The notes under the pieces are model-generated. The model was not told where the DNA came from and searched no databases. It worked only from the letters and a program-made list of their open reading frames with translations. Below, one piece after another: positions 851 through 48,100 of a stretch of 64,000 bases of DNA; position 1 is the stretch's first letter; the number at the start of each line of letters is the position of its first letter. The translations under genes were made by a program, and so were the position numbers. Source of the stretch: Helianthus annuus (lineage: Eukaryota; Streptophyta; Magnoliopsida; Asterales; Asteraceae); assembly GCF_002127325.2 (NCBI RefSeq), contig NC_035437.2, positions 154,735,897-154,799,896 of the forward strand, given 5' to 3'.

Positions 851-1366
851 TGATTTTCTTTCGGTTATTTTTTAGTGTTTTTTCTACATTTACTTTTTAT
901 TCTTGTCAGCGGTTCCGTGTGTAACACGCTTGTATTGATTTCAAACACATATAAAGACAGACTAAATAACAAAATAAGTTCGCCGTAACACGGCGGCATT
1001 TTTTATAACTAGTTTGTTATTAAAACATCTCTAGAAAAACTCACTGCACAGACTCTCTCTCTCTCTCTCAAAACAGGATTAAGGCCATGGGGTATGGGGC
1101 TTGGGTTGGGGCGTGGGTTGAGGGAAAACGCCCAAGCCACCATCCCGGGTGGGCTTGGGTTGGGGCGTGGCCCTTGGGGCTTGGCTTTCAAGCCGGGCGT
1201 GGGGCGGGGGAGCAAGATGACATGGCGGGCTGTGAATGGCTCATTCAAACTAGCTGTTGGCTAGCCGTTAGGGGCTGCTTTTTAAAAAAAAAAATCCTTT
1301 ATAAATACCTTACCATATTTAACATTTTTCTCACACAATATCAAACACATAAAACACAATCTTGCC

Positions 1367-2566
1367 ATGAGTTCTTCAAGTTATAGTGAATCGTCATCAT
1401 CATCTGACGATGGTGCGGAAATATTTCTACAAACGATCGCGGCGGTGGTGAAAGCTATCGTGGAAGACGAAGACGATGAGGAAGAGACTCAACAACCTAA
1501 ACGGAGGAGAATGTACATCGCTCGTGAACGGCACACCGCTGACGATTTGTTGGTAAGCGATTACTTCTCAGCGGAACCTAAGTATGATGAGAAAATGTTT
1601 AGGCGTCGTTTTCGTACGAGTAAAAACTTATTTTTAAGGATATCTAGAGATCTTGAGGAGAAGTATGTTTATTTCCAACAAAAACCCGATGTAACCGGGC
1701 AATTAGCATTTAGTACGTGGCAAAAGGTCACGGCCGCACTTAGGCAGTTAGCGTACGACAATAGTTCGGACATTATGGATGACTATTTAAAAATGTCTGC
1801 ACGTGTAGCTAGAGAAAGTCTTCACAAATTTTGTTCGTGTATTCTAGAACTTTATAGGAAAAGATATTTGAGAAAGCCCTCATTTAGTGACATGCAACAA
1901 ATATTGGAACATCACGCAGATTCTCATAGGCTACCCGGGATGCTAGGTAGTTTAGATTGTATGAAATGGCCTTGGGAACTTTGTCCTACCCAATGGCAAG
2001 GCGCTCACACTAGTGGATTTCACGGGGTGCCAGCCATCATGTTTGAAGCGGTTGCGTCCCAAGATCTTTGGATATGGCATGCGTTCTTCGGTATGTCGGG
2101 TTCACATAATGATATTACCATCATAAACCACTCGCCTCTTTTCAATGATCGGGTAAATGGTATAGGACCCAAAGGAACTTTCTTTGTAAACGAGGTTGAG
2201 TACATATACGGGTACTACCTAGTTGATGGGATTTACCCAGAGTGGGGGGTTTTCGTAAAATCGTTCACAAGACACGGTACCGCAGATCCAAAGAGATTAA
2301 AGTTTAACAGGGTCCAGATGGCTGCACGTAAAGATGTCGAGCGAGCATTCGGTGTTTTGAAGAAAAGGTGGCGAATATTGGGAATGTCTTGTCGACTATG
2401 GGACAAGGATCAGATTGGAAACGTGATGTACACATGTATCATTCTTCACAACATGATTTTGGTGGATGAAGGTAGAGCGGTCGTAACTTACTATGATGAT
2501 GATGACCCCCAACCAGGTAACGTAACAAACGAAGATAAAGCGGCAAATGAATTTTTTATAAAGTAA
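1367..2566 (+). CDS. PIF/Harbinger transposase (HARBI1/ALP1-like nuclease)
   Basis: The 399-residue product starts with a Ser/acid-rich leader (residues 1-45) and then a DDE_Tnp_4 nuclease. The catalytic triad is visible: D197 in GSLDCMKW, D287 in YYLVDGIYPEW and E325 in KDVERAFGVLKKRW. The family signature CIILHNM follows at 358-363. Harbinger transposases cut at the element termini and paste into TWA targets, normally with a Myb-like partner. The stop TAA at 2564-2566 is followed in the same frame by 32 more codons ending in TGA at 2663-2665. They contain NLRSDLVEHV, which looks like the usual family C-terminus. The stop is therefore probably a recent nonsense mutation that removes the tail but leaves the catalytic core. 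Confidence 0.9.
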   Translation: MSSSSYSESSSSSDDGAEIFLQTIAAVVKAIVEDEDDEEETQQPKRRRMYIARERHTADDLLVSDYFSAEPKYDEKMFRRRFRTSKNLFLRISRDLEEKYVYFQQKPDVTGQLAFSTWQKVTAALRQLAYDNSSDIMDDYLKMSARVARESLHKFCSCILELYRKRYLRKPSFSDMQQILEHHADSHRLPGMLGSLDCMKWPWELCPTQWQGAHTSGFHGVPAIMFEAVASQDLWIWHAFFGMSGSHNDITIINHSPLFNDRVNGIGPKGTFFVNEVEYIYGYYLVDGIYPEWGVFVKSFTRHGTADPKRLKFNRVQMAARKDVERAFGVLKKRWRILGMSCRLWDKDQIGNVMYTCIILHNMILVDEGRAVVTYYDDDDPQPGNVTNEDKAANEFFIK

Positions 2567-16525: not shown

Positions 16526-16890
16526 GTCTATGTTTTTTTAAGTCTTTGGTTTTTTTTATTAACTTTATGTTTTTTTTATGTTTATGTAATGTGGTTTTAA
16601 TATTAATGAAAATAGTTTGTTAGTATATTTGTTAAATGTTAAAAAAAAGAAGACTAAAAAAAAAAAAAAACATAAAAAGTGGTGGAGGACTATGACTAGG
16701 ACCATCCTTCCATGCCTTCTAGTTTTGGAGGATGAACCATCTTTGGGAGGATTATGACGTAGCGCCTACATGGCGGACCATCCTCCAAAAATGGTTCATC
16801 ACCATACCGAGTAGCCTTATAATACACTTGTGAATTAATATACAGATCCTCTACCATTAATGCTTATCTTATCATTAATTATTAATTGTT

Positions 16891-16899
16891 TATATAAAG
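16891..16899 (+). promoter_or_regulatory. TATA box of the FRIGIDA-like gene
   Basis: TATATAAAG lies 61 bp before the ATG at 16952. A start site 25-35 bp downstream would fall after the upstream ATG at 16904, which favours 16952 (MDTISGL) as initiator. Position-based inference. Confidence 0.5.
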
Positions 16900-16951
16900 A
16901 TATATGCTCCTTTTCTTGAAACCCCGATCACCCACCGGGGCCCCACCGTCG

Positions 16952-19900
16952 ATGGACACCATCTCCGGTCTCATCAACTTACAAAATCAGTCAACCCTAC
17001 CAACATCACCACCTACACCTCCTCCTTCAACATTAAAAACCGCCACACAACAACCACCACACATCACAACCACCACTCTCACCGCCGATATACCATTCTC
17101 CACCTCCATCAACCAACTCCACACCTTCTCCACCGCCTTATCAGCATTCCTCAACCACTACGACGACTTGCAGACTCATATCAATTTCATTACCTCATCA
17201 ATCGACTCCAAATTGCCACCTCATCTCGTTGAAACTGTTTGCCCTAACTTATCAGCCCTAACGAACGTGCGTTTATTAGAAATTGATTGTGATCGTACGA
17301 TAACCGCTTCACCAGAAGTCAGTTTGTCAGAACGAAACCCTAAGGTAAGTGATAGCGCCAGTTTTTCGCATAATTCTGGAGAAATTGATGCTTCGAATAA
17401 GCTTGAAGTTGTTGATGTATCGAAGAATGTTGAAGAGATTGATGTATTGAAGAAACATGCGGAAACTGATGCTTTGAAGAAGCCTGTTGTAGAAACTTTT
17501 GTTGATCAAGCGATAAATGATGTTCTAGAAGCCATTGTTTCAGAACAAAACCCTAAGGAAAGTGAAAGTGATTGCGAACCGAATCATGAGTCTGCAACTG
17601 CCGATTTTTCGCGCAATATTGAAGAATTTGATGCTTCGAAGAAGCTTGAAGTTGTTGATGTGTCGAAGAATGTTGAAGAGATTGATGTATTGAAGAAACA
17701 TGCGGAAACTGATGCTTTGAAGAAGCCTGTTGCAGAAATTTTTGTTGATCAAGCGATAAATGATGTTTTAGAAGCTATTGTTTCAGAGCAAAACCCTAAG
17801 GAAAGTGAAAGTGATTGCCAACGGAATCATGAGTCTGCAACTGCCGATTTTTCGCCCAATTTTGAAGAATTTGATGCTTCGAAGAAGCTTGAAGTTGTTG
17901 TTGACGTGTCAAAGAATTGTGGAGAAATGGATGCGTCTGAGAATTTTGTAGAAATTGATAGTTCGAAAAAGTGTGAAGAAATTGATGTATTGAAGAAACA
18001 TGTAGAAACTTTTGGTGATCAAAGTATAACTGCTTTTCCAGAAGCTGCTGTTTTAGAACAAAAGCCTAACGGAACGGCTACGAGTGGCGAACGGAGCAAT
18101 GAAATCAATGTGAGGACACCTGAAGGCCTTGAAGAAACTTGTATCGGTAAGGATCCTCAAGGAATTGATGTACGGCAGAAGCCTGAAGAAAATTATTCTT
18201 CAAGGAGTCCAGAAGAAACCTACACTTCGAAGAAGCAAAGAAAGCGAAGAAAAACTGGTAAACGTAAGAAGGATAAGGATAAGGATAAGGAAACGGCTTT
18301 AAACAAGTTTGCGGGGAAATTGCAATCCTTGTGTAAAAACATGTATACTAGGGGAATGAGGCGGTATGTAGCAAAACATTTATCTGAAACGTTTAATCTT
18401 CGCGAGGAAATTATTAAGGCGTTGAAGCTGGCTAAAGATCCTGCAAAACTCGTTCTAAACTGCACTGGCAATTTTTTTAAACAGGAAACTGCAGGAAGGC
18501 TGGCTTCAGTCTTGGTGTTGGAGTGTTTTTTGATGATCAGTAATGATGATGGCATTGAGATCGAGAAAAGAGAATTCGAACGTGCATTAAATAATGCTGT
18601 AATTTGGAGAAAACGGATGATCAGAGAAGGTGGATTTGGACACACGGACGAGGTTGATGCCAGGGGTTTGCTTCTGCTTATCAGTGGATTTGGGATTCAA
18701 GATGATGTTTTCAAGACTCAAGATATTGTGGATTTGATTCAGGCTAGTAATGTGAAGGGAATATCAACCGCACTTCGTCGTTCAGCTTTTCTTATGCCAA
18801 AAATTCCAGGTTTATTGCTTTTATATGTTAATTTATTGTACTTTAAAACCTCTATAAATGCATACCCTCAGGACAAGAGGAAATATCGTTTGTTGGCGTC
18901 ATTTATTTATTTGTTGATGATGATAACTACAGATAACAATTATAATAACAATTATGGACTGAAGAAAATTATTCATTTGGGTTGTGTTCTGTGTGATTAA
19001 GCTAACATGGCATATGCATATGCATTTGGGTTGAAGCATCGTATGTATAATGTAGGAGAATTGTTATGGTGGATATAACTAAACTGACTTTTAAAGGTGG
19101 ATACAAATATATGATAATGAATCTAGGTTAAATTTTAAACATTCATATATTGTTATTTTTTTAGCTTCATGAGCTAAACTCTATTCTGGTAAATTATACT
19201 TGTTTCAGATGTAATTTCATTGATGGTGAAGAATAATCTAGAAATTGAAGCTGTTGATATTGCCTATACATTCGGGTTGGAGGATACGTGTAACTCTCAG
19301 AACATATTGACGACATATTTGCGCAATAAAATTAAAGATATTCAGAACGATTCGCCTTTCCAAACGGTAACCAATACCCTCTCTCTGTTATACTAAATAT
19401 AGTATATTTTTTTTGGTGTTGTGCATCTTTTCAATTAGAACACTTTCTTTTTTAGTAAACTTAAAAATTTTAATTACTTGCCCCTTTTTATCACTTGAAA
19501 GAATTCTAGCAGAATCCTATATATGATTATTGAACTTTTTGTCGGTAATTAGTGCGTCAAATATGATTACAAAGGTTATATTTTATTTTAATACGGGCAA
19601 AGTATTAAAGTCACACTTTGGGCAACTTTTGACCCGTTTGAGAATTGTTTTTAAAATATTACCTTTCGGACAGTTAGAATTTATGTATAGCCCGGATCAA
19701 CCTATCTATAAGCAAATGGGTCTAAAATGCCATCCCTAAATTGAGTAATTGATATGTTCAACTAGTTTCACCTATTTTGTCATTATTAAAGGGTAACCAA
19801 CTCAAAACATTGCATACGAAATATACGATTTCTCAAACGTACGAGGGACCAAAATTAATGTTTGCGATTTTTAAATTTTCAGTTGGAGGCAATGAAGCAG

Positions 19901-22900
19901 CAATTACTTGATCTGAAATCAGTAAAACAATGTTTGGAATCTCACAAAGTTGATCCTTCGACGCTTCTTCCCGACTTAAAAATCAATGAAAATATACAAA
20001 TTCTCGAGAAAGAAGTAAACGAATCGAAATTAATCCAAAAAAGGAAGTCTTTAGAAAACCCAATTCATCAGGAAGCAAAGCGTGCTTGTTTTGGTCATGA
20101 AAACATGCCACACCACCATGAACCTGTTGATAACTACGGCATGGTGTTAGAGCAAACCCCGAGCGAAAGCGCTAGTGATTGCGAATGGAGTCATGAATCT
20201 GCAACGATGCCTGATAGCACCGATTTTTCGCACAATTATGAAAAAATTGATACTTTGAAGAACCTTGAAGTTGTTGATGTGTCGAAGAATTCTGAAGAAA
20301 TTGATGTGTCTGAGAATCCTGTAGAAATTGATACTACAAAGACGCTTGAGGAATTTGATGTATTAAAGAAGCATGAAGAATTCGATACATTGATGAAACA
20401 TGCAGAAACTGATACTTTGAAGAAGCAGGAAGAAATTGTTACAGAAACTTTTGGTGATCAAACCATAGGCGTTGTTTCAGGACGAAACCCTAACGGAATG
20501 GCTACTAATGGAGAACAGAGTCGTGAAATTGTTACGGCACCTGAAAGCTTAGAAGAAATTAACGTATTAAATAAGCTTGAAGAAATTGATGTCTTGAAAA
20601 AGCCTGAAGAACTTGATACTTCCATGATTCCAGAAGAAACTGTTCCAGAAACTTCTGTGGTTTCTGTGTTACAATCCTTTTGTGAAAGCATGAGTCCTAG
20701 GCAACTGAGGCAGCATGTAGCAACACATTTTTCTAAAATGATTAATCTTCGCGAGGAAATTGCAAAATCGTTGAAGCTAGCGAAAGATCCTGTGTATCTC
20801 GTTCGAAGCAGCATTGGCAGTTTTTTTGTCAGCCGCAGTACAACATTCCGCGATTACAATAAAAAGTTATCAAGAATGGTTGCAGTTTTGATTTTGGAGT
20901 GTTTTGTGATGATCAGCAGTGATGGCATTGAGATCGCAAATAGTGACCGGGAATACGCTGCAAAAGATGCTGTAATTTGGAGAAAACGGATGATCAGAGA
21001 AGGTGGATTTGGAAAAACGGACGTGGTTGATGCTAGGGGTTTGCTTCTGCTTATCAGTGGGTTTGGGATTCAAGATCATGTTTTCAAGATTCAAGATATC
21101 ATGGATTTGATTCGAGCTAGTAATTGGAAGGGAATTTCGGCTGCACTTCGTCGTTCAGCTTTTCTTATGCCAAAAATTCCAGGTTTGTTGCATATGTTAA
21201 TTTCTTATACTTTAAAACCTCGATAAATGCATACCCCCAAGACAAGAGGAAATATCGTTTAGTGTCGTTTTATATTTATTTGTTGATGACAACAACAACA
21301 ACAACAACAAACTGAAGTTAAATAATTCATTTGGGTTGTGTGTGATTAAGCAAACATGGTATATACATTGGATCTTTGAATTAAAAACCAGATACACATT
21401 CTTGATGTACATAACTCGATTTGTACAATGGTTGCATGATGCAAACTTCTTGTTATATCATTTTTATAACTAAACTGACTTTTAAGGGTGGATATCTACA
21501 TATGATAATGAATCTAGGTTAAATTTTAAATGTTTATATATTGTTTTTTTTTTTTTTTAACTTCATGAGCTAAACTATATTCTGGTAAATACTTGTTTCA
21601 GATGTAATTTCTTTGATGGTGAAGAATAATCTAGAAATTGAAGCTGTTGATATGGCCTATACATTTGGGTTGGAGGATATGTGTAACCCTCAGAACATAT
21701 TGACGACATATTTGAACAATAAGATTAAAGATATTCAGAACGATTCGCCTTTTCAAAAGGTAACTAATACTAAGTATAGTATGGTCTTTTTTGGTGTTGT
21801 GCCATCTTCTTAATTAGAACACTTATTCGTAAACTTTGAATTTCAAATTACTTGCCCCTTTTTGTCACTTGAAAGAATTCAAACAGAATCCCATATATGA
21901 TTATTGAACTTTTTGTCGGTAATTAGTGTGTCAAATATGATTACAAAAGTTATATTTTATTTCAATATGGGCAAAGTGCATCTTAACTATAACTTTTTGA
22001 GTAAAATGATTTAAGGAGTTTTAATGTATTAAAGTTAGACTTTGGGCAACTTTTGACACGTTTGACAATTGTTTTGAAAATATTTACCTTTTTGGACAGT
22101 TAGAATTTATGTATAACCCTGATCAACCTATTTATAAGCAAACGGGTCTAAAATGTCATCCCTAAATTGAGTAATTAATTTGTTCAACTAGTTTCACCTA
22201 TTTGTCATTATTAAAGGGTAACCGACTCAAAACATTACATATGAAATATATGATTGGGCAAACGTATGAGGGATCACAATTGATGTATGTAAATTTTTAA
22301 TCTTCAGTTGGAGGCAATGAAGTCGGTAAAACAATGTTTAGAATCTCACAATGTCGATCCATCGAAGCTTCTTCCAGACTTCAAAATCAATGAAGAAATA
22401 CAAAATCTCGAGAAAGAAGTAAGCGAATTAAAATTAATCCAAAAAAGGAAGTCTTTAGAAAACTCAATTCATCAGGAAGCAAAGCGTGCTTGTTTTGGTC
22501 ATGAAAACACGTCGATAAATCCTGAAGAAAATTGTACTTGTGAAGAGATTGATTCATCAAAGAAACGTTCAGAAACTGATTCTTCGAAGAACCCTGTTCC
22601 GGAAACTTCCTATGATGAAACCATAACAGCTGTTCCAGAAGCCATTGTTTCAGAACAAAACCCTAACAGAATGGCTAGTTATCACGAACAGAGTGATGAA
22701 AACGTGAGGACACCTGAAAGCCTTGATGAAACTGATGTATTGAAGAAGCCTGAACAGACTGATATTTGTAAGAATACAGAAGTAACCGTCGTATTAAAGA
22801 AGCCTCAAGAACCTGATACTCCGATGGTTCCAGAAGAAATTGATACCTCGAAGAAACCTGAAGAAACTGTTCCGGAAACTTCTTGTGATCAAACCACACC

Positions 22901-25394
22901 TGCGGTTCCAGAACCCATTGTTACAGAACAAAACCCTAACAGAACGGCTGCTAATCGCAAACAGATCCATGAAAACGTAACGGAGAAGTCTGCGATTTCT
23001 GAATTAGAATCCTTGTGTGAAAGCATGAGTTCTAAGGAACTGAAATGGCACGTAGCTGCAAATTTATCCGAAATGATTAATCTTCGCAAGGAAATTGCAA
23101 AGACACTGAAGCTCGCTAAAGATCCTGCAAAACTAGTTCTAAACAGCATTGGCTCGTTTTATGTACAGGACCGTAAAAAATTCTTGCAGAAAAAGCAAGA
23201 TTTAGGAAGGAAGGCTGCGGTTTTGATTTTGGAGTGGTTTGGGATGATCAGCGGTGACGGCGTTGAGATTGCGAAAAGTGACGAGGAATTCGCAGCACAA
23301 GCTGCTGTTGAGTGGAGAAACCGGATGATCAAAGAAGGTGGTTTTGGAAAAACGGACGAGGTTGATGCCAGGGGTTTACTTCTGCTTATCAGTGGATTTG
23401 GGATTCAAGATCATGTTTTCGAGATTCGGGATATTGTGGATTTGATTCGAGCTAGTAATGTGAAGGAAATTTCCACTGCGCTTCGTCGTTCAATTTTTCT
23501 TGTCCCGAAAATTCCAGGTTTGTTGCTTTCTTATGTCGATTTCTTATATATTAAAACTTCGATAAATGTATACCTCAGAACCAGATAAAATATTCGTCCA
23601 ATGAGGTTATTTATTCATCGATAACGATAACAATGGTAATCCCAGGCTGGAAAAAAATGTTCATTTGGGAGGTTATTCGTTTATCGTGGTTATACTGAAG
23701 TTGACGTTTAATGTGTGTGATTAAACAAATATATATATAGTGAAAGGTTAAAATACAAAAGGCTCTTAACGTGCGGCAGTATGCGACCACCAATATAACG
23801 TGTGCAGTTATGCAAATAACGTGTGTAATTAGGGTTAACCCAACCCATGCGTAATTATGCAAATAACGTGCGTAATCAGGGTTTATAACGTGCGCAATTA
23901 TGCAAAGTTAATTACTATTGTGCCACCGCGTTCAATTAAAGGCCTAGATTCAGATGTGCGGTTGAGATGCTCGCATACTCGTCGCACAATAAGATGGTCG
24001 TGTACGTTAACCGGCCTATATATATGTATAGACTTGATCAGTTTTTTGCTGTTCCAGATTTTTTTTGACCCTTAATGTATTCATTTTTTTGTTGAATTCA
24101 TGAGCTAAACTATTTTATGCTGAATTATACTTGTTTCAGAGGTAATTGATTTGATGGTGAAGAATAATCTGGAAATTGAAGCTGCTGATATTGCCTATAC
24201 TTTCGGGTTGGAGGACAAGTGTCGTCCTCTGAGCATACTGGCGACATTTTTGCGCAATCGCATTAGAAATATTTCAAGCAGTTCTTTTTTTCACATGGTA
24301 ACCAATACCCTCTCTTCCTTTGTAGTGTGTTAATAGTAATATAGCTTTTTAAGTAGAGTAAATTACGTTTTTGGCCCCTGTGGTTATATCACTTTTACTA
24401 TATTAGCCCAAAATAAGAATTTTTAACATATCTGCCCCCATGGTCTCTATAACTAACCATTTTGGCCCCTAAGTCTAACCATTTTAGCCCCCATGGTCTC
24501 TATAACTAACCACCATTTTGGCCCCCATGATCTCTAGATTTAGGGGCCAAAATGGTTAGTTATAGAGACCATGGGGGCAGATATGTTAAAAATTCTTATT
24601 TTGGGCTAATATAGTAAAAATGATATAACCACAGGGGCCAAAAACGTAATTTACTCTTTTAAGTAAGATGTTCTGAAATCGGTGTTTGTGATTTTTTTTT
24701 TAAGTTTCAGTTGGAGGAAATGAAGCAGCAGTTATTTGATCTGAAATCTGTAAAACAATGTCTGGAATCTCACAACATTGATCCTTCAGTGCCTTTTCCC
24801 GACTTCCAAATCAATGAAAAAATACAAAATCTCGAGAAAGAACTAAACGAAGAAAAACCAATCCAAAAGAGGAAGTCTTTAGACGGCCCAATTTATCAGG
24901 AAGCAAAACGTGCTTGTTCTGGCCACGAGAACATGCCACACCACCAGAGTCCCGTTGATCATTATGGCATGAATCGGTATCATCAGTCAACACAGCTGAG
25001 CACTAGCTACTTTGACCCTTGCCGAGACCTTCATAATAGTTACATCAGTAACTATACCCCTTCATCTGTATATAATTCACCCGCAATGCATGAAACTATA
25101 ACCAGCACCGTGCCCAATGGTCCAGCCGTCGGTAGTTTCATTGGTTCCAATGGCCATATACACCATTCGGCTAATGTTAAACCTTACGGTCGGCATGAGC
25201 CATATGTTCAGCATTATTCAAGACATGGTCAAACATATGATTCACAACCTTATGGTAGAGGTAGACCGTGGGAGTGGGGCCCGCCAGAACCGTTTCCACC
25301 ATCTAATCCATTGGGTGGCTTTCCAAGAAGGCGGGGCCCAACCTCGGATCTCTACAGTGATGCTGATAAAATTGCAATGAAATACTTAAGGTAG
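16952..25394 (+). CDS. FRIGIDA-like protein with three Frigida domains
   Basis: Seven exons are proposed: 16952-18809, 19209-19366, 19883-21182, 21602-21759, 22308-23517, 24140-24297 and 24711-25394. Every intron is GT-AG and the joined frame is 1,841 codons. Frigida (FRI/FRL superfamily) domains lie at about residues 454-672, 932-1158 and 1387-1614. Each has LREEI/LRKEI, LKLAKDP, MI(R/K)EGGFG, ARGLLLLISGFGIQD, PKIP and MVKNNLEIEA. Residues 1-100 form the single N-terminal FRL start. A basic KRRKTGKRKK stretch near 430-450 could be a nuclear signal. Residues 1615-1841 carry the usual coil (LKSVKQCLESHN) and a Tyr/His/Gly-rich tail ending near GPPEPFPP. FRI-type proteins are nuclear scaffolds; FRI itself activates the floral repressor FLC. 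Ordinary FRLs have one domain in roughly 500-700 residues. Three separate genes are unlikely because modules 2 and 3 lack start regions and module 1 and 2 lack tails. Confidence 0.85.
17385..17895 (+). repeat. 243-bp in-frame repeat in FRIGIDA-like exon 1
   Basis: GTTGATCAAGCGATAAATGA recurs with an 81-codon (243-bp) period at 17501 and 17744, and the flanking sequence repeats as well. The encoded acidic linker contains many EEIDVLKK- and VVDVSKN-like units of about 11-12 residues. The period is a multiple of three, so copy-number changes keep the frame. Confidence 0.8.
19883..24710 (+). repeat. Tandem exon-intron modules of the FRIGIDA-like gene
   Basis: Homologous exon starts TTGGAGGCAATGAAG (19883 and 22308) and TTGGAGGAAATGAAG (24711) are spaced 2,425 and 2,403 bp apart. 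The short exons at 19209, 21602 and 24140 are all exactly 158 bp. Long exons run phase 0 to 1 and short exons phase 1 to 0, so any number of modules is translatable. Introns of modules 1 and 2 remain alignable (for example ATGATAATGAATCTAGG), whereas those of module 3 do not. This suggests module 3 is the older branch or was altered by insertions. Confidence 0.85.
24356..24656. mobile_element. 301-bp fold-back MITE in the last FRIGIDA-like intron
   Basis: A perfect 9-bp duplication TTTTAAGTA (24347-24355 and 24657-24665) flanks an almost fully palindromic element starting GAGTAAATTACGTTTTTGG. The arms return around 24530. The 9-bp duplication and GAGTAAATT terminus match the Mutator-type family at 3322. 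It accounts for most of the 413-bp intron and is absent from the equivalent introns of modules 1 and 2. Confidence 0.85.
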
Positions 25395-30269: not shown

Positions 30270-30427
30270 GGAAACCGTTCGTGGTTTCCCCTCACTTGTT
30301 CGAAAATTCAAAAAATTTGCCGTTTGAGAGAGAAACTGTTATCTGTCTTCTCCGACTATTTTTTCTGAAATTCCGGTGAGGTTGCTGGTGTTTCCGTTCA
30401 CCATATTTTGTTTCTTGAATATTTTTG

Positions 30428-33400
30428 ATGGCTGAACCATCGAATCCACACAATGTGGAGGGTGAAAACCCTGAACAGCCGGTAATGGCTGAAGAAGAAG
30501 ACGAGGGGGCTGCCGGTGTTGGTTTACCGGCGTTAAGGTGGACCAAGAAGTCTTTTGACAATCTTATGCTTACTGTCCAAATGCCCCCTGAATATGGGGC
30601 TCAATATCCATCGGAGGGTGATACTGGTGCCGACGCTCCGGCCGGTTATGTGACCATGTGGGCCGACTTTTTTGGTGACTGTAATCTCCGGTTACCGTTG
30701 ACGGTGTTTGTCGTGGATGTCTTGGAGTGGTACAAGGTCCACATTTCTCAAGTGAGTCCGTTTGGTATGATTCGGATTCGAAATTTTGAGTTCACCTTCC
30801 GTGCTCTTGGTATAGAGCCTACCGTCGGAGATTTCCGACGGTTCTATCAGATGACAGTGTCCATGGGGTTCTTTTCTTTCCGTCAACGAGACGGTACCCC
30901 CAAGCTGATGACTCCCCCCAAGGGGATGACGATGTGGAAGAAGAAATTCTTCTACATCAAAGCTGCTGCCATTGTTGCAGATATGACGTTTCGGAATGTG
31001 ACCGAGACGATCATCGCGGAGACCATTGCGGTCCCTAGCACGAAGTCAGTGGAATGGTTTCCTCAGTTGCAGACCATTGAGACCGTGAAGCTGACCAATA
31101 CGCAACTATGGCTGTTGCGTATGATGCTGAGGAGGAGCAAGAACTCGAAACCCGTGGTGCGGGAGAAGAGCGGTGGTACGTACTTTTTATCTGTTTACGT
31201 TCCTTATTTTTGTGTGCGTTACTGATATTTGTGTTTGCTATCAGAAAATGCTCCTGCATGGAGGATGTTTGCCCCGGATTTCCTGGGTACGGTTGAGACC
31301 GTGGTTTGTGCGGATGGTGAAGAGGATCACAATACTATCATCCGTAGTAACTTCCGGGTGCCTACTGAGGCTGCACTGGCAGTTGAGTTGCCGTCAGGCA
31401 AAGGTATAATATCCAAGCTTTGTCACTTGTGTTGATAATGTTGGTTTATTGACGTATTGATTCCATGCAGGTGATCTTGGGGCCTTGGGGGACCCTGAAG
31501 CGAAAGGTGTGCCAAAGAGGCAAACTGTGAAGGGCGTGCGCTTTCGCCAAAAGAAGATAAAGGAGGTCACTACTGTGCCTCATCTGGTGCCGCAGGCAGC
31601 AGGTATCTCTCACTCCTCTTTTCGTCGACACAAGGATTATGTGATAGTATCTGATACCCTTGAGGGTTTGGGTACAGCCGCGGAGTCACGTTCTGGTGCT
31701 GCGAAGAAACAGGCAGAAGAGGCGGCCGCGGGAGGGACAGCTGCGGGTCCCCCTGTGATTGGTGAGAAGAGGAGGCCAGAGCAGAAAGCTGCTGGTGGTG
31801 TTGAAACCAAACGTCGGAGACTAGTAACCAAAAGGTCTGCTCCGACGCAGAAAAAAACCTGCGGTTGTCGTTGGTAAGTGTAGGCTATCTAGTCTTAACT
31901 GTTGTGTAACTAGTTTTGATAGCTATTTGACTTTTTTGCAGAGCCTCAAGATGAAGATTTGTCTATCTTCGATGCTCCGGAGTCCCCCCCGCGTGCCACG
32001 GGTGCGGGTGCAACGGAGGTGCCGTCGACACCTCCCGTCAAGGTGGTACCTGAGTCAACCGTGCAGAAGGAGGGTACCGCAGAGAATGCTGCGGCCCAGA
32101 TATTTGATACTGTCGACTCGTCCAACAATCTGATCTCTCCCAATGAGGGAGACGATTTGAGTGTGCGGTTCACTGCTACTGGGAAGCAACATTTTGATGC
32201 TGAACCGCAAAAAACTGGCGCTGAAGCGCGGCAGCATGATGCTGGGCCGCAGAAGTCTTCGGTTGATAAGGGTACCAGCTCGTCTGCCAGTGGTGCGGGG
32301 TATGACGGGCCTCCAATTCAGCCTGGGGAGTCTGAATTGGAGTATTACTACCGCACTTATTCCCCGGGTCGCAGTATGGTGTATCACCGACCCCCCTGGA
32401 CTGTTATGCAGGGGGATGATATTTCGAATGATCCTGCGGCCTGTAAGGAGATTTTGGGTGGTCTGGGGACCCCCTTTGAAGTTGAGCGCGCCCGTGCCGC
32501 ACCTCGAGAGTTGCGTATAAACCAGCTCTCAACAATGTTGGTAGGGACTTCCATTGTGGCGAATGCCATTTTGGAAGACTATAAAGTGCTGGGTCGGCGC
32601 GAGGAAGATGCTGCTCGTATGCGGGCAGAAGCGGAAAAGCTGGTCCAGGCTGCCCGTGCGGGTGCGGAGCAGCTGGAGAAAGACAAAGCTGCTTTTGAGA
32701 AGCAGAAGCAGACTGCTGAGTGGGCTGCCACTGCCCAGCTGAAACAGGTGCGTACCCTTGCTAAACTCCTTGCTGATGAGCGCAAGAGTTGGAACGAAAA
32801 GTTGTCCAATGAGCGCAAGAAATGGAATGAATCTTGGGCTAAGCAGAATAACGTTCTGTTTCATACTCGGCAGGAGTTGGCGAATGTCAAGGCGGCAAAT
32901 GTTGCCTTGGGCAGCGAGAAAGCTGCGGCGGAGGCCATATCGGTTAAAGCGCTGCAGGAGAAGGCCGACGCCTTGAAGGCGCTTGAAGAGGCCAAAGAAG
33001 CCGGGGCTCGTGCCTCAAAGGCCCTTGAAGAGGCCGCGGAGAAGGAGAGCCGTTCTTCCAAGGCTCTGGAAGAGGCGAATGCGGAGCGCATTCGTTTGGG
33101 CAAAGTTGTTGAAAGCCTGCAGGTACGTTTCGTTACCTCTGTTGTATATTTCCTTTATTGTTTTGAAAATATTTATCGAGTGTACTGTTTGCTGTTCTTG
33201 TAACAGGCTGAGGTTCAGGCCCGGGAGGTCGCGGTTACGGACCTTACTGCCCGCGTGTCTGCTGCGGAGAAGCGGGCGGACGCTGCTGCTGAGCCCAAGG
33301 ATGCCTTGGTGTCCTCTTTTAACCAACTGGAAGCTGACCGTGAGTGGTTGCGGACTCACGGCATCGCGCGTGTAAGTATCCATTGTCTTTACATTGGCTT

Positions 33401-34468: not shown

Positions 34469-37400
34469 TTACATATAACAGCGTCGAAGCTGTTGTGCAT
34501 TCCATGTGCGTGCGATAGGTTCGCCTTCTAGTGTTTGCAATCTGTACGCGCCTTTCCCTAAGACCTCGTTGATGAGGTAGGGTCCTTCCCACTTGGGGGC
34601 GAGTTTGCCTGGGCGCTCGGCATTAGATGCCTCGTTGTCGCGTAGGACGTAGTCTCCTGGGTTGAAAGTACAAACGCGGACGCGCGCGTTGTAGTACTTT
34701 TCAAGTTTGGATTTATATTTGGCCTCGTTGATGGCAGCGTTTTCGCGCCTTTCTTCCAAGAGGTCCAAATCGATCCTGCGTTCCATGTTGTTGTCTAGTT
34801 TTTCAATAGCCAACATTCTAGGAGAGGGGAGACCTACTTCTGCGGGAATCACCGCTTCTGAACCGTAGACTAGGCTGAAGGGTGTTTCCCCATTGCTTGT
34901 TTTTGGGCTTGTGCGGTGAGCCCATAAGATACTTGGGAGTTCATCGACCCAGCCACGCCTGGCCGTTCCCAACCGTGCCTTGATCCCTTCGACTAGGCTT
35001 TTATTGATACTCTCGACTTGGCCGTTCCCTTGCGGGTGTGCGACTGAGGAGAATATGTGCTCAATGTGTAGTTCCTCTAGCCATTTTTGAAATTCGTCGG
35101 CAGCGAAGTTGGTGCCGTTATCGGTGACAATGCACATTGGTAATCCGAAACGGCAGATGATGTGTTCCCAAATGAACTTTCTGGTTATCATAGCAGTGGT
35201 TGAGGCGAGTGGTTTTGCTTCTACCCACTTGGTGAAGTAATCAACCGCCACTATGATAAATTTAACCGCACCTGGAGCGTCAGGGAAAGGTCCCACAACG
35301 TCAATTGCCCATTTCTGGAAGGGCCATGCGGTTGTGACGGGGACTAAGTTGTTTTTTGGCCGCAAGGTTTTTGGAGCATGACGTTGACAGTCGATGCACT
35401 TGCGCAACTCTTTGACGGCATCCAGGTGCATGCCGGGCCAGTAATACCCGGCATTCATGATTTTGGCCACTACCATGCGTGGTCCAGCGTGTATGCCACA
35501 TATGCCCTCGTGTATCTCTCGAATGAGGTATGTGGCATCCTGGGGGTTGACGCATCGTAGTAGTGGCCCGAGGTATGATTTGCGGTATAAGATACCGTCT
35601 CCCATCTGATAATGGCACGCTTTGTATTGTAGTTTGCGTGCTTCTGATTTGCTTTCGGGAGTCACACCGGATTGTAGATATGCGATAATAGGTGTCATCC
35701 ATGATGTTGAACCGTATTGGATGACGTTGACTTGGCGCAGGGGTACCGAAGGATTTTGCAAGATTTCGATGCGTATCTCCTTTGCCAAGTGTTGGAAGCT
35801 GGTAGATGCAAGTTTTGATAGTGCATCTGCGGACTTGTTTTCGCTTCGATTAATATGGCGAATATTGAATGAAGCGAATTTGGATTTTAGTTGCAGGACT
35901 TGTTCGAGGTAGAGGATCATGATATCCCCCTTTGCGGCATAGTCGCCGCGTACTTGGCCTGCAACTAACAAAGAGTCGACGTGGGCTTCCAGATGTTGCA
36001 CGCCGATTTTGACTGCTAAACGTAGCCCCGCTAACAGAGCCTCATATTCTGCCTCGTTGTTTGTGCTTTTGAATTCGAGGCGGATTGCATATGTAAGTTC
36101 TTGGCCGTCAGGGCTGACGAGTCGCAGACCTGCACCCGCCCCTTCGTCGTTGGAGGCACCATCTGTGAAGAGTGCCCATGTCTCTGAGGTGGGTGGCGTT
36201 GGTGCAGGAGTTTGTGCTTCTTTGCATTCTTGGATGCGATTCACCGGTACTTCGGCGGCGAAATCAGCTAAGATCTGGCCTTTAATCGCGGGGCGCGGTT
36301 TATAATGTATCGTGTGCGCGCCTAGCTCGATGGCCCATTTCGCTAATCGCCCAGAGATGTCGGGTTTGGAGAGGATCGGGCCGATCCTGTAATTGGTTAG
36401 CACTGTGATGACGTGGTTTACGAAGTAGCGTCGCAACCGTCTTGAAGCGTGCACTAATGCTAGTACCAATTTCTCCATTATTGAGTACCTCGTCTCTGGG
36501 TCGTTGAGCATCTTGCTGATGTAGTAGATGGGTGTTTGAACCCCCTTTCGCTCCACAATTAGTACCGCACCCACCGCGTTGTCCGCGGCGGATAGGTATA
36601 GTATGAGTGGCTCATCCTTGCGTGGTGCGGTTAAAGTTGGGAGTTGTATCAAACACTCCTTCATTTCCCGGAAGGCCTGTTCAGCCTCTGCGGTCCACTG
36701 GAATTGTTCTTTCTTTGAACAGCTCCGCAGTGTCTTGATGAACGGATAAGACTTAGCTGCGTGGTTGGCTAAGAATCTGTTAAGTGCCGCTAGCCTGCCG
36801 GCTAGCCGTTGCATATCCTTCATCGATGAAGGCGATGGCATGCGCTCGATCGCCTGGACCTTCTCCGGGTTTACCTTGAATCCATCTTTAGTCACGATGA
36901 ACCCAAGGAATTTGCCTTCTTCCATTCCAAACGAGCATTTCCCTGGATTGAGCTTTATGTTAACGCTTCGCAGAGTTTGGAATGTTCTTTCGATATCTGT
37001 GAGCATGGTATCTTCTTCCATGCTCATAACGACCAGGTCGTCCATGTAGATCTCGACAGTTTTGCTTATTTGGCCGCAGAAAGTGTCGTTCATCAACTTT
37101 TGGTAGGTTGAGCCCGCGTTGCGCAACCCAAACGACATTTTTGTATAGCAGTAATTTCCGGTGGGAGTCCGGAATGCCGTTTTGTCTTCATCCTCGATTG
37201 CCATTTGTACTTGATGGTATCCTTTGTAGCAATCGAGGAAACACTTCCACCTGAATGGTGCGAGATTATCGACTTTTTCGTTGATTTCTGGAAGTGCGTA
37301 ACAATCCTTGGGGCAAGCTTTGTTAAGGTCTTTGTAATCGACGCACATGCGCCAGCCCCCGGATGGTTTTTCTACCATGACTGGGTTGGACAACCAAGTC

Positions 37401-40015
37401 TGGTATTTAACTTCCCGCAGGATGCCTGCGGAGAGCAGTTCTTCGATCTGCTCTTGCATCGCCTGATTTTTAGCTGACCCAAGGTGGCGTTGGCCTTGGA
37501 TCACTGGCTTGATACCTGGCATGGTATTCAAGTGATGTTGCGCAATATCACGTGGGACCCCGGTCATGTCTGCGGGTGTCCACGCGAAGATGTCTTGGTT
37601 CCTGAAGAGGAGCTGCTTCAGTTGCGCTTTGGTGGTCGGGGACAAGGCGTGACCCAATGTGACCTTTTGTTCTGGGTATCTCGCGTTGAGAACCCATTTT
37701 TCTGGCTGGTCATTGGGGGTGGGCCTTGCGACCTTGGTCGGACGTGCTTCGTCCGACATCATGACGTCCCTGCGGGTATAGATTATCGCGACCCCCGATT
37801 CGGTTGGGAAACCAACCGCAGAGTGGGGGACCGACGTAATCATATTGAAATCTCCTTGGGATTCTCTCCCGAGGAGTACGTCATATCTGGAGGTGTGAGG
37901 TAAAACCATGAAGTTTACCTCTTCTGTCCTTGTGCGGTTTCCGCTGGAAAGACGCACAGGAAAAGTAATCTGGCCTAGGGGAAAGACAGTTTCCCCTGCG
38001 AACCCGGTTAATGGGTAATCTACTGCTTGCAACCGATCTTTGTCCTCCTGGTCGAACTGGTTGAAGCATTGTTCGTAGATTATATCAGATGTACTGCCCG
38101 GGTCGATGAATAGACGCTCGGTGCAGTAGTGTGCCAGTTGGCCTGAAATGACGACGGCGCGCCTATCGCGCGGTCCGCCTCGGACTTTTGGAAAGACGAC
38201 TTGCTCGTCCTTCCAGTCACATTCCGGCCTTCTTGCCGCTTTCCGCGGCCTGCCCTTGCCTCCGTGGATCATGTGGGTGGAAGCCACGTGCATGGTTCGC
38301 TTCCCGGAGGAGGTACCTTCGCCGTGAGGGGTAATGCGCTTGGTGGGTTTTTGCCCACCTGGCAAAAGATGTTGCAGTTTACCCTCCTTTAAGGCGCGCT
38401 CAATCTCCAGTCGGAGACTGATGCAGCTGTTGGTGGTGTGGCCTGAGTCCTTGTGGTACTCACAGTAGAGTGTGAGGTCCTGATTTTTCTTGGACTTCAT
38501 TGGTTGGGCCGGTCGCAAGAACTGTGGGTCCGCAAGGAGGACCTCACTTGGCGACATGGTGATCTCGGTCCAGTTGCGGTCCCGAGATTCTTTCTTGGAC
38601 GCCCGATTGTCTCGGGCGGGGTTGTAGTTCTTTGGGTCGAACGTGTTGGTTTGCGGGAAGTATGGTTTGGAAATATCGCGATTTCCAACGTCCCGGTTGC
38701 GTTTATTGTTACGCTTGGACCCTTGTTGGGATGTTTCGGCTTGGGGTTTTGCCTTTGCCACATGCGGTTCGAGTGACCGCTGTGTCTGGGCGTATTTCTT
38801 GACCGCAGTCATGACATCTTCCCATTTTTTGGGCAAGCCCTCCTTGCCAGAGATGGTCATGATCATCTCTCTGTCCTTGACGGCCCGGATGAAGTGGTTT
38901 CGTGCCATTTGGTCTGCCACGTCACCTATCTCCAGGCACTCTTTATTATAACGGACGACGAATGCTTCGAGCGATTCGTCGTTCCTTCGCCAGATGTTCA
39001 TGACGTCACACGAATCTCGTTCGTGGCGTCGCTGCTGGCAAAAATGTGTGAGGAACTTGGTACGCAAGTCCTCGAATGAATCCAGTGATCCCACTGGCAA
39101 AGAATCGAACCATGCCCTGGCCAGGCCCGTAAGGGTCTGGGGGAAAAAATTGCACCAAGTGGGTTCATCCCACTGGCCGTTGATGCCCGCGCCCATGAAG
39201 ACGTTCATGTGGTCGTCCGGGTCGGTCGAACCATTGTATTTCCCAACGTTGAATGGGAACTTTGTCGTGGTGACATGGGCGTTGGCAATCCGCGTGCCGA
39301 ACTTGGAATTTTCGGCCGCTGCCTTTGGCCTGTATGGTTCGTTTGCAGGGCGCTTTGCCGCCCTAAGGTATATGTTGCGGGGGTGACTGGGAGGAACATA
39401 GTTGCGTCCTCCCGGTCTGCTACTGGTGTCATGCGAATCACCGCGGTAGCTATGGTCGTCAGGGTCGGTATGACCGTACCCTTCGGTGTATGGTTGTGGG
39501 CCCAATCGGCTCTGAATGCCGGGGCCGCGTCTGGAGGTTGATCGCCTCCAGTCCTCGCCATGGGGGCCAAGGCGGGTGTGTACCGGTCCTCTGGTGTGGG
39601 ACCCGTATGAGGAATCATCCTCGTTGAGGGTGTGGACCGAACAGTAAGACGATCCCCTTTCTTCACGCCGGCTTCTTGAAGCCGGGCGTGAATGGATCCT
39701 GCCGTCGTATTGTAAAATACGCTCAACAGGGGTGTGCGGTGCTGTGGGAAGCCCAGCTCGTATATTCGCTTCAGTACAAGCGCGGTTGTATGCTGCAGTC
39801 AGCGTAGCTGCCTGCTGCTCGTACCAGGCATGAATGGTCGTGCCTGGTGGGATCACAGATGGGAACTGTGATAAGTCATGTCCGAACATAAAGGAGGGGC
39901 TCCTTTGTGTGGACGTGCCAATGTGTCCGGGTTGGGAGGTCGAGGCATTGACCCCTACCGGGTTTGGGATTGGAGGATTTTGGTTATCCGCAGTGTTGTT
40001 TTGGTGATCAGTCAT
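34469..40015 (-). CDS. Gag-Pol polyprotein of the Tat-type element
   Basis: A single uninterrupted frame of 1,848 residues. Gag core: about 250-415, with a CX3HX4GHX5C-type knuckle near 518-531. Aspartic protease: DPGS at 638-641. Reverse transcriptase: about 860-1060, with catalytic D928 and YMDD at 990-993. A first RNase H region follows at about 1137-1240. A second, archaeal-type RNase H (about 1280-1400) has D1285, E1321, D1347 and D1397. Integrase: zinc-binding H1502, H1509, C1540, C1543 and catalytic D1572, D1632, E1668. The frame ends in a basic C-terminus. Every catalytic residue I checked is present, so the element could be autonomous. DPGS and YMDD are variants of the usual D(S/T)G and Y(I/V)DD. 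Gag and Pol share one frame with no visible frameshift site. Confidence 0.95.
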   Translation of the reverse strand: MTDHQNNTADNQNPPIPNPVGVNASTSQPGHIGTSTQRSPSFMFGHDLSQFPSVIPPGTTIHAWYEQQAATLTAAYNRACTEANIRAGLPTAPHTPVERILQYDGRIHSRPASRSRREERGSSYCSVHTLNEDDSSYGSHTRGPVHTRLGPHGEDWRRSTSRRGPGIQSRLGPQPYTEGYGHTDPDDHSYRGDSHDTSSRPGGRNYVPPSHPRNIYLRAAKRPANEPYRPKAAAENSKFGTRIANAHVTTTKFPFNVGKYNGSTDPDDHMNVFMGAGINGQWDEPTWCNFFPQTLTGLARAWFDSLPVGSLDSFEDLRTKFLTHFCQQRRHERDSCDVMNIWRRNDESLEAFVVRYNKECLEIGDVADQMARNHFIRAVKDREMIMTISGKEGLPKKWEDVMTAVKKYAQTQRSLEPHVAKAKPQAETSQQGSKRNNKRNRDVGNRDISKPYFPQTNTFDPKNYNPARDNRASKKESRDRNWTEITMSPSEVLLADPQFLRPAQPMKSKKNQDLTLYCEYHKDSGHTTNSCISLRLEIERALKEGKLQHLLPGGQKPTKRITPHGEGTSSGKRTMHVASTHMIHGGKGRPRKAARRPECDWKDEQVVFPKVRGGPRDRRAVVISGQLAHYCTERLFIDPGSTSDIIYEQCFNQFDQEDKDRLQAVDYPLTGFAGETVFPLGQITFPVRLSSGNRTRTEEVNFMVLPHTSRYDVLLGRESQGDFNMITSVPHSAVGFPTESGVAIIYTRRDVMMSDEARPTKVARPTPNDQPEKWVLNARYPEQKVTLGHALSPTTKAQLKQLLFRNQDIFAWTPADMTGVPRDIAQHHLNTMPGIKPVIQGQRHLGSAKNQAMQEQIEELLSAGILREVKYQTWLSNPVMVEKPSGGWRMCVDYKDLNKACPKDCYALPEINEKVDNLAPFRWKCFLDCYKGYHQVQMAIEDEDKTAFRTPTGNYCYTKMSFGLRNAGSTYQKLMNDTFCGQISKTVEIYMDDLVVMSMEEDTMLTDIERTFQTLRSVNIKLNPGKCSFGMEEGKFLGFIVTKDGFKVNPEKVQAIERMPSPSSMKDMQRLAGRLAALNRFLANHAAKSYPFIKTLRSCSKKEQFQWTAEAEQAFREMKECLIQLPTLTAPRKDEPLILYLSAADNAVGAVLIVERKGVQTPIYYISKMLNDPETRYSIMEKLVLALVHASRRLRRYFVNHVITVLTNYRIGPILSKPDISGRLAKWAIELGAHTIHYKPRPAIKGQILADFAAEVPVNRIQECKEAQTPAPTPPTSETWALFTDGASNDEGAGAGLRLVSPDGQELTYAIRLEFKSTNNEAEYEALLAGLRLAVKIGVQHLEAHVDSLLVAGQVRGDYAAKGDIMILYLEQVLQLKSKFASFNIRHINRSENKSADALSKLASTSFQHLAKEIRIEILQNPSVPLRQVNVIQYGSTSWMTPIIAYLQSGVTPESKSEARKLQYKACHYQMGDGILYRKSYLGPLLRCVNPQDATYLIREIHEGICGIHAGPRMVVAKIMNAGYYWPGMHLDAVKELRKCIDCQRHAPKTLRPKNNLVPVTTAWPFQKWAIDVVGPFPDAPGAVKFIIVAVDYFTKWVEAKPLASTTAMITRKFIWEHIICRFGLPMCIVTDNGTNFAADEFQKWLEELHIEHIFSSVAHPQGNGQVESINKSLVEGIKARLGTARRGWVDELPSILWAHRTSPKTSNGETPFSLVYGSEAVIPAEVGLPSPRMLAIEKLDNNMERRIDLDLLEERRENAAINEAKYKSKLEKYYNARVRVCTFNPGDYVLRDNEASNAERPGKLAPKWEGPYLINEVLGKGAYRLQTLEGEPIARTWNAQQLRRCYM

Positions 40016-40064
40016 GATCGTGAGAGAGGAAAAAGGGATGGATTAGAAAATGCTAAGAGTAGCG

Positions 40065-45143: not shown

Positions 45144-48100
45144 TTACTGAAATAAGTGAGGATACTTTTGTTTCATTTCTGATTCTAACTCCCAGGTGTA
45201 TTCATGTCCTCTTTTTGAATCCCACTTGACTTTGACCAGTACTAGTCTTTTGTGCTTGAGAAACTTGACCTTTCTGTCTTCTATTTGGAGTGGTTTCTCA
45301 ACAAATTTTAGCTTTTCATTCACCTCTATATCCTGAAGAGGTACTACCAGTGATTCGTCAGATAGACACTTCTTGAGGTTAGATATATGAAATACATCAT
45401 GTACTCCTCCTAGTTCTTCTGGTGTAAGCGATATGCAACTGGTCCTATTCTTTGAGTTACTGGGAATGGTCCTATGTACCTTGGACTTAGCTTTCCTTTC
45501 TTACCAAAGCGGGCTACCCCTTTCCAAGGAGAAACTTTTAAAAGTACCTTGTCTCCGATTTCAAATTCCAGCGGTTTGCACCGATTGTCTGCATAACTCC
45601 TTTGGCGATCTCGAGCTGTTTTCAGTCTTTCCTTAATTTGAGTTATTTTTTCGGTGGTTTCCTGTACAATCTCAGGACCGGATAATTTACTTTCTCCTAT
45701 TTCTGCCCAGCAAACTGGAGTTCTACACTTTTGTCCATACAGTGCTTCGAACGAGGCAGCTTCGATGCTTGAATGGTAACTATTGTTATAGGAGAATTCA
45801 ATTAAGGGTAGGTGGTCATCCCAGTTTCCACTGAAATCTATTACACATGCCCTGAGCATGTCTTCCAGGGTTTGGATCGTCCTTTCACTTTCCCGTCTGT
45901 TTGGGGATGGTATGCAGTGCTTAAGTTCAGTCTAGTCCCCATGGCTTCTTGAAAACTTGTCCAGAAATGTGAAGTAAAACGACTATCTCTATCTGATACA
46001 ATAGAGAGTGGAACTCCATGTAAGGATACTACTTCGTCTACGTATAGCTTGGCTAATCTTTCCATGCTAAAAGTTTCCTTCATGGGTAGAAAATGAGCTG
46101 ATTTGGTTAATCGATCCACAATTACCCAAATTGCGTCGTTACTTTTTCTGGTCTTGGGTAGCTTAGTAACAAAGTCCATTGTTATTAGTTCCCACTTCCA
46201 CACAGGCATTTCTAACTGTTGGAGTAACCCTGAAGGTTTCTGGTGTTCTGCTTTAACTTGCGAGCAGGTCAGACACTTAGATACATATCTAGCTATGTCC
46301 TTTTTCATTCCTATCCACCAGAAATTATTTCTTAAATCTTGGTACATCTTATTATTTCCAGGATGCATGGTATACCTAGATTTATGGGCTTCCTCTAGAA
46401 TCTTATTTCTTAAATTTCCTTGCTTAGGTACCCAAATCCTGTTCTTGTGGAATCTCCAAATTCCATCAGTTCCTTGCTCTAATTCCTTGATCCTTCCTTT
46501 CATTCCTTCAGTATCATCCTTGATTTCTATTGCTTGAACATTCTTCAGTTGTTCCATTAAATCTAATTGAAGATTATCTAAGAGCACGAACTCGTTTTTG
46601 CTTTTTATGATACTTACAACTTAGGGCATCTGCAACTACATTTGCTTTCCTTCGTGATATTGAATATCACAGTCGTAATCACTTAGAATTTCCATCCATC
46701 TTCGTTGTCTCATGTTCAATTCTTTTTGCCCAAATATGTACTTTAAGCTTTTATGGTCTGTATAAACGGTAAACTTACTTCCATACAGATAGTGTCTCCA
46801 AATCTTAAGGGCAAAAATTATCGATCCTAATTCTAAGTCATGCGTCGTATAGTTTTCCTCGTGCTTCTTAAATTGCCTTGAGGCGTACGCAATTACCTTT
46901 TTGCGTTGCATTAGTACACATCCTAATCCTAGCTTAGAAGCATCACAGTAAACTTCAAAATCTTCTGTCCCTTCTGGTAAGGCAAGAATTGGAGCGTTTG
47001 TTAACCTTTGTTTTAAAATCTTAAAAGCCTCTTCTTGCCTAGGTCCCCATTCAAACTTTACTGCTTTACAGGTTAGCTTAATTAATGGTACAACTATCTT
47101 AGAAAAATCCTTAATGAATCGCCTATAGTATCCGGCTAACCCTAGAAAACTTCTAACTTCCGTAGCTGATTGCGGAACCTTCCATTTGGTGATTGCTTCT
47201 ATTTTGGAGGGATCTACGTGAATACCTTCGTGATTCACCATATGTCCTAGAAATTGCACCTCCTGTAGCCAAAATTCACACTTTGAGAATTTGGCATAAA
47301 GCTTCTCTTTTCTTAACAAAGTTAAGAGTGCATGTAAATGCTCACAATGCTCGTCCTGGCTTTTGGAATAAATAAGTATGTCGTAGATGAAGACAATTAC
47401 AAATTTATCCAAATACGGTTTACAGATCCTATTCATCATATCCATAAATGCTGCAGGAGCATTTGTTAGTCCAAATGGCATAACTGTAAACTCGTAGTGA
47501 CCATACCTCGTCCTGAAAGCGGTTTTAGGTATGTCTTCTTCTTGTACCTTCAGTTGATGGTATCCGGAGAGTAAATCTATCTTAGAAAAATATCTAGCCC
47601 CCTGAAGTTGATCAAAAAGATCATCAATCCTAGGTAATGGGTATCGATTCTTAATTGTAACTTTATTTAGCTCTCTATAATCGATACACATTCGCATGGA
47701 ACCATCTTTCTTTTTCACAAACAACACTGGTGCTCCCCAAGGGGATGAACTAGGTTGTATAAATCCTTTGCTTAATAATTCATCTAACTGCTTTTTCAAT
47801 TCTAACATTTCGGTGGGTGCTAACCGATAAGGTGCCTTAGCTATTGGTGTAGTTCCAGGAATTAGATGAATTCTAAATTCTACTTCCCTATCTAGAGGTA
47901 ATCCTGGTAGCTCTTCCGGAAACACATCCGGGTATTCTGATACTACATGAATTTCTTTAAGTTCCTTACCCTTAGAGCTAATGATTACCGAAATCATATA
48001 CACTATTCCTTGCTTTCGTTCATAACTAGCAACTTTCATTACATAAATGAACTTCATTGGCTTATGTGGCTTATCTCCTGCAACCCTGATTATTTCTCCT

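Follow-up and report, generated by a model that had tools for sequence, protein, structure and literature searches.

The window studied here, a stretch of 64,000 nucleotides of sunflower (Helianthus annuus) DNA (C5:154735897-154799896 of the 3.01-Gb genome), carries a gene encoding three Frigida domains in one reading frame. We regard this gene, with a probability of about 0.6, as a sunflower co-orthologue of FRIGIDA (FRI) whose module was duplicated in frame, and its product as a putative multivalent nuclear FRI scaffold. Judged by its sequence, the locus is a real and well-formed three-domain FRIGIDA gene, and its seven exons would be joined in a single mRNA. The preliminary description of this DNA had seen in it the best candidate for an undescribed system. 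This goes too far, since what is new is the architecture of a known scaffold. A published report (PMC9570299) already describes a two-domain Frigida protein from tomato.

Gene structure and reading frame

Within positions 16952-25394 (+ strand) the following features were located.

16952-18809, + strand: exon 1; start codon, N-terminal region, linker 1 and first part of Frigida domain 1 (splice model, Pfam, composition)
17362-17900, + strand: tandem repeat in linker 1; in frame, 243-bp unit (81 aa), 2.2 copies, 94% matches
19209-19366, + strand: exon 2, 158 bp; middle of Frigida domain 1 (splice model, genome-wide Frigida scan)
19883-21182, + strand: exon 3; end of domain 1 (helical segment), linker 2 and first part of Frigida domain 2 (splice model, Frigida scan, junction analysis)
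20141-20143, + strand: duplication junction from module 1 to module 2 (blastn of exon 3 against exons 1 and 7)
21602-21759, + strand: exon 4, 158 bp; middle of Frigida domain 2 (splice model, Frigida scan)
22308-23517, + strand: exon 5; end of domain 2, linker 3 and first part of Frigida domain 3 (splice model, Frigida scan)
22510-22538, + strand: duplication junction from module 2 to module 3, at about bases 203-231 of exon 5 and placed differently from the first junction
24140-24297, + strand: exon 6, 158 bp; middle of Frigida domain 3 (splice model, Frigida scan)
24355-24657, no strand: MITE-like inverted repeat inside intron 6; arms of 123 nt, 98% complementary
24711-25394, + strand: exon 7; end of domain 3, sole C-terminal tail and stop codon TAG (splice model; tail with pLDDT <50 in the 95%-identical allele P0026)

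All six introns of the splice model are of the GT-AG type and the spliced frame comprises 1,841 aa plus a stop codon with no inner stops, which bears out the seven exons and the continuous 1,841-codon frame proposed before. The likewise proposed conservation of the splice plan was found as well: exons 2, 4 and 6 share the length of 158 bp, the intron phases recur module by module, and the same plan returns in a five-domain neighbouring gene (see below). Scanning the genome for Frigida in all six frames, without recourse to the splice model, turned up the same domain exons, three of them long and three short. In the translated protein there is one N-terminal region and one C-terminal tail, as the preliminary description had it, so that neither module 2 nor module 3 amounts to a full FRI gene.

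Linkers 1 to 3 are acidic in composition (net charge -28, -32 and -21, respectively), and linker 1 contains a basic stretch at aa 430-440, within exon 1, which resembles a nuclear localisation signal. The core motif of the linker 1 repeat is present twice in the window protein and in that of the line HanIR and once in that of HanPSC8 (P0006); the 81-aa repeat is thus a length polymorphism between sunflower lines. In blastn comparisons bases 1-261 of exon 3 match exon 7, and from base 258/259 onward exon 3 matches exon 1. The different placement of the two junctions points to two duplication events or to one event followed by later change.

Domain content and placement in the FRI clade

The three Frigida domains predicted earlier were recovered with the family profile: PF07899 matched the window protein in three stretches (E 1.7e-182, 605.7 bits compared to a curated cut-off of 25.7). 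The protein is thereby not of the one-domain plan that is customary, if not defining, for the family.

In a domain tree of 28 rows, which holds no Arabidopsis row and in which several rows are long-branched (among them those called FRL1 and FRL3), a branch with support of 99/100 separates a FRI side of 21 rows. This side contains the domains of the window gene and its neighbour together with FRIGIDA of PDB entry 5ch6, Brassica FRIGIDA and Ipomoea FRIGIDA; a tomato row named FRIGIDA-like protein 2 by its source also belongs to it. On the opposite side lie sunflower's own five Frigida genes with a single domain, to which we presumptively give the sub-names FRL1, FRL3 and FRL4 from their N-terminal sequences, and both domains of the Hevea protein P0024. 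Membership of the window domains in the FRL group was ruled out by this tree, in which they do not group with FRL members, and the label "FRL-type" used before has to be replaced by FRI-type.

The five-domain neighbour and the genomic context

Genome-wide, the Frigida profile gave at least 31 matches, 15 of them in the five single-domain loci (C16, C6 with two, C1 and C11) and 16 on C5. The latter form two clusters, namely the window gene and a second gene, LOC110941666, at C5:154842014-154859286, about 81 kb downstream of the end of the window gene. Accordingly, the FRI-clade exons found all belong to multi-domain genes, the counts being lower bounds. Introns split the domain of the single-domain genes at roughly matching profile positions, near 180 and 220-240, so that the introns of the window gene look ordinary.

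LOC110941666 has 11 exons, five of them of 158 bp, and 10 of 10 introns are GT-AG. With exon 3 left unspliced it encodes 2,859 aa with no inner stops. Its isoform X2 (P0002), in which Pfam detects five Frigida stretches, agrees with the genome letter for letter except that it omits 36 nt of exon 3, an in-frame stretch of the genomic sequence. Both genes follow the same exon plan and are 71% identical over 88% of the queried part, but the neighbour differs in its five domains and 11 exons. Domains 1, 2 and 3 of the window protein pair with domains 1/2, 3 and 5 of the neighbour, respectively. A chance origin of the array was ruled out, given that all six introns are intact and that a paralogue as well as the allelic models described below exist.

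At the 5' end, 2.7 kb (window positions 16856-19573, beginning shortly before the start codon and ending in intron 2) form one block of 92% identity with the neighbouring gene, whereas the remaining best blocks between both genes range from 67% to 89%. Together with the synonymous divergence of domain 1 from its paired neighbour domain, which is 0.05 compared to 0.21-0.22 for domains 2 and 3, this suggests a recent exchange of the 5' third; sequence exchange between the two C5 FRI genes is therefore likely. Part of a published study reports an inversion on sunflower chromosome 5, ann05.01, of 29.3 Mb in Ha412HOChr05 (PMC9127631). It may cover the window locus, which is a lead only, with borders not located.

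Elsewhere in the window, an open frame at 1286-2563 (+ strand) with Plant_tran and DDE_Tnp_4 domains was found, which we take to be a Harbinger-type transposase. An open Ty3-type polyprotein of 1,857 codons (gag, RT, RNase H, integrase) occupies 34472-40042 (- strand), and a separate ORF near it, at 30419-31222 (+ strand), matches PF04195. A second Ty3-type element at 45413-51694 (- strand) is spread over several frames, with gag/protease matches at 50336-51694 and protease/RT/RNase H matches at 46639-48318. An identical minisatellite pair (units of 23 and 24 bp) at 52054-52185 and 60542-60673, 8.5 kb apart, perhaps represents the two LTRs of one element. At 56457-57355 there is a 448-bp tandem duplication, 99% identical, that spans open frames; the first of these, at 55709-56914, had no Pfam match.

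Alleles, gene models and the question of a single transcript

Three-domain models of the locus exist in two other sunflower lines, HanIR (P0005, 96% identity) and HanPSC8 (P0006, 97%). Domain 1 of the window gene lacks 12 residues that are present in these two lines, and HanLR1 lacks them likewise.

Other annotations cut the locus up, and they could be read as a sign of several transcription units, in which case separate single-domain mRNAs, or mRNAs truncated by intron retention, would be made and the long frame would be only a potential one. In HanOQP8 the locus is split into P0034, which covers module 1, and P0026, which starts in the first exon of module 3 and, with module 3 and tail, is 95% identical to window residues 1162-1841. 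In HanLR1 the model P0031 reads into intron 1, whose reading frame in the window is open as far as 18997, so that its retention would yield a plausible truncated protein. Similarly, the H. anomalus model P0028 is confined to module 5 of the neighbouring gene and the last part of its module 4. We nevertheless hold separate units to be improbable. Lacking the N-terminal region, modules 2 and 3 would have to start with the preceding module's C-terminal helix, and modules 1 and 2 would be without a tail. The introns, as stated above, are ordinary and interrupt the domain where the five single-domain genes do, and the splice sites are kept in six of six introns here and in 10 of 10 in the paralogue. 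In addition to the three-domain models of the two lines, five-domain models are found in H. annuus and H. debilis. A single mRNA from the window gene remains the reading we prefer.

Gene models of this kind can be over-joined, too. The Tagetes erecta model P0007 combines three Frigida domains with an LRR_9 domain at its end, which is probably a fusion of two neighbouring genes.

Constraint on the domains

Each part of the window gene was compared with the paired part of LOC110941666 (ranges are 95%). For domains 2 and 3 dN/dS was 0.42 (0.26-0.70) and 0.32 (0.19-0.54), respectively, for linker 3 0.48 (0.27-0.89) and for the tail 0.50 (0.30-0.97). These ranges indicate maintenance as protein for both of these domains as well as for linker 3 and the tail, and domains 2 and 3 have been under purifying selection since the split of the two genes. 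The values for linker 2 and the N-terminus were 0.60 (0.34-1.18) and 0.53 (0.21-1.39). Domain 1, with 8 synonymous differences only, gave 1.24 (0.64-3.22), which is indistinguishable from neutral. The core pattern E...W[RK].RM...GG...DARGLLL (variants allowed) is present in 3/3 domains of the window protein and in 5/5 of the neighbour.

These results also bear on the view that the protein truly has three domains but that the extra ones arose near-neutrally, as by-products of a locus prone to recombination, and bring no functional gain. Such an origin would fit the dN/dS of about 1.2 in domain 1, the variation of domain number, junctions and linker length among lineages and lines, and the signs of recent exchange, i.e. 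the low synonymous divergence of domain 1 and the 2.7-kb block. The purifying selection on domains 2 and 3 and the core pattern retained in every domain of both genes argue against it, and we consider it rather unlikely, although it deserves some weight. Recent positive selection on the exons is not claimed here: the introns of modules 1 and 2 look more alike than the exons, yet the synonymous divergence of the domains is about 0.22, and ungapped repeat blocks bias this comparison.

Distribution among Asteraceae and other plants

Querying with the three-domain part listed at least 24 proteins, 16 of which were scanned with Pfam. The protein searches considered candidates sharing most words at 0.55-1.75 times the query length, and all figures hold among the matches listed. 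Lineage labels follow general usage; those of Erigeron and Centaurea were taken from a taxonomy lookup. Among the 16 scanned proteins, the Frigida stretches numbered 5, 5 and 3 in those of H. annuus, 3 and 2 in Tagetes, 2 and 2 in Smallanthus, 2 in Deinandra, 4 in Ambrosia (two being fragments), 2, 1, 1 and 1 in Bidens, 3 in Centaurea, and 2 and 3 in Erigeron (one being a fragment). With a profile made for this analysis, five domains were found in H. debilis, three in PSC8, two in Arctium and two, the first incomplete, in Cynara. The rows from Lactuca, Cichorium, Artemisia and Tanacetum have a single domain, the 374-aa Tanacetum protein P0119 being only a fragment.

FRI relatives with two to five domains thus sit in the databases as hypothetical or uncharacterized proteins in several Asteraceae lineages, and the titles and abstract openings listed for openly licensed papers contained no description of a multi-domain FRI from this family. 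The multi-domain form seen in the window is not unique, as the five-domain neighbour demonstrates, too.

Two-domain proteins were counted among 94 proteins (P0026-P0119), of which 22 are from Asteraceae, 11 are without named species and 61 are from other named species. None of these 61 relatives among the matches listed has two complete Frigida domains. P0042, P0080, P0107, P0113, P0116 and P0117 show complementary pieces of one domain, and the Gossypium proteins P0106, P0110, P0113 and P0117 an additional partial end piece. Non-Asteraceae proteins longer than about 1020 aa were sampled by the three-domain search alone; among the matches listed, Hevea P0024 and Drosera P0025 have two matched stretches each, P0022 and P0023 one. 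Like the window protein, Hevea P0024 carries tandem Frigida domains, but only two, and on the FRL side of the tree, which makes it a separate case.

All 22 Asteraceae FRI proteins compared, whether single- or multi-domain, contain one or more copies of a 9-residue linker motif derived from the sunflower repeats, and so does 1 of the 33 other proteins, lone matches in Lactuca and Capsella being weak. At least two motifs at 9-residue spacing were found in 17/22 Asteraceae proteins and 0/33 others. Since the motif is also present in single-domain Asteraceae FRI, the repeat linker appears to be older than the multiplication of the domains.

Duplication history

The domains group by lineage in the tree, with support of 97/94 for Carduoideae, 100/100 for Erigeron and 99/98 for the Heliantheae alliance. 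This tree left out the BidensB-E, Hdeb, Tanac_cin and Ilex rows of an earlier one and included only the second domain of Cynara. One clade of all last-position domains was rejected with p-AU 7.3e-5, in a test that groups by position but was run after the earlier tree had been seen. The module borders vary, too: the C-terminal helix is missing from 4/4 internal modules of Centaurea, Arctium and Cynara and present in 13 of the 14 listed internal modules of the Heliantheae alliance, the exception being domain 1 of BidensA. An ancestral array with orthologous positions is disfavoured by both the last-position test and the module borders. From the clustering by lineage and the rejected last-position clade we infer repeated duplication within the gene.

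In the Heliantheae alliance, grouping by genus is seen for the copies of Tagetes, Smallanthus and Deinandra but not for those of Helianthus, Ambrosia and Bidens, indicating that some duplications predate the genera. This last point could equally be claimed for an old array, arisen by one duplication in the Asteraceae ancestor and homogenised within lineages by gene conversion. The signs of exchange between both sunflower genes would agree with such conversion, and gene-model errors could conceal domains in Lactuca, Cichorium and the Anthemideae. The domains, however, group by the larger lineages and not by last position, the borders of the modules differ between Carduoideae and the Heliantheae alliance, and the rows from Lactuca, Cichorium, Artemisia and Tanacetum have one domain only. 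An old array is accordingly doubtful in our opinion. Only tentatively, as a possibility well short of an even chance, we propose that in Asteraceae FRIGIDA became a tandem-domain protein on three or more independent occasions (in Carduoideae, Astereae and the Heliantheae alliance) after a family-specific acidic linker of 9-residue repeats had arisen. Domain number and linker length would then set the valency and spacing of a nuclear scaffold and tune its condensation, with valency (1, 2, 3 or 5 domains) as an evolving trait.

Predicted structure and putative function

FRIGIDA is a central switch of winter-annual flowering and has been studied as a condensate-forming scaffold. For P0026, the 95%-identical allele of module 3, the FRIGIDA fold is predicted: the AlphaFold2 model (mean pLDDT 61.5) contains a helical block at residues 210-512, flanked by regions of pLDDT <50 (59-209 and 521-678), and Foldseek placed 5ch6_B first among PDB entries (E 1.9e-15, TM 0.89 by target, 42% identity). 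The model of a two-domain Bidens relative, with a mean pLDDT of only 54, too low for conclusions on domain packing, consists of two helical blocks and linkers of pLDDT <50; its N-terminal helix (residues 32-68) has a low pLDDT of about 50-60.

The window protein shares its clade with FRIGIDA, the single-domain scaffold of the Arabidopsis FRI complex (PDB 5ch6), and, judged by module 3 of the allele, its predicted fold, as well as the plan of one N-terminal region and one tail, here predicted to be disordered. It differs in having three domains instead of one and long acidic repeat linkers, and its 1,841 aa compare to about 550-750 aa in most non-Asteraceae proteins among the matches listed. 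Tomato SlFRL6 has more than one Frigida domain per protein, too, but according to its description there are two, one of them called "highly conserved" (PMC9570299).

The duplicated module would comprise a linker, the exon-1 part of the domain, the 158-bp exon and the domain end, joined in frame. The predicted product has one N-terminal region, three folded Frigida domains beaded on acidic, disordered repeat linkers, and one tail. Retention of one tail together with multiplication of the folded domain and its terminal helix suggests a multivalent scaffold, which would presumably act in the nucleus as FRI does in Arabidopsis. Three partner-binding folds per chain might confer higher avidity for the partners of the FRI complex and a stronger tendency to form condensates, and multiple copies would be free to diverge in partner choice. 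Part of a study on Arabidopsis states that cold-induced nuclear condensates of FRI require two coiled-coil domains and the disordered C-terminal domain (PMC8612926). A published analysis of lettuce reports no clear FLC orthologue (PMC7982828), so that Asteraceae may lack the target on which FRI classically acts. Any effect of the window gene on flowering is, like its single mRNA, nuclear location, multivalent binding and condensation, an inference.

Since multi-domain FRI loci are cut up or labelled "hypothetical protein" in annotations, surveys may miss FRI in Asteraceae. If the FRI counterparts of sunflower and its relatives are multivalent, scaffold valency, which is usually altered by engineering only, would vary naturally within one plant family, with linker length varying even between cultivars, and the role of valency in FRI condensates would become directly testable.
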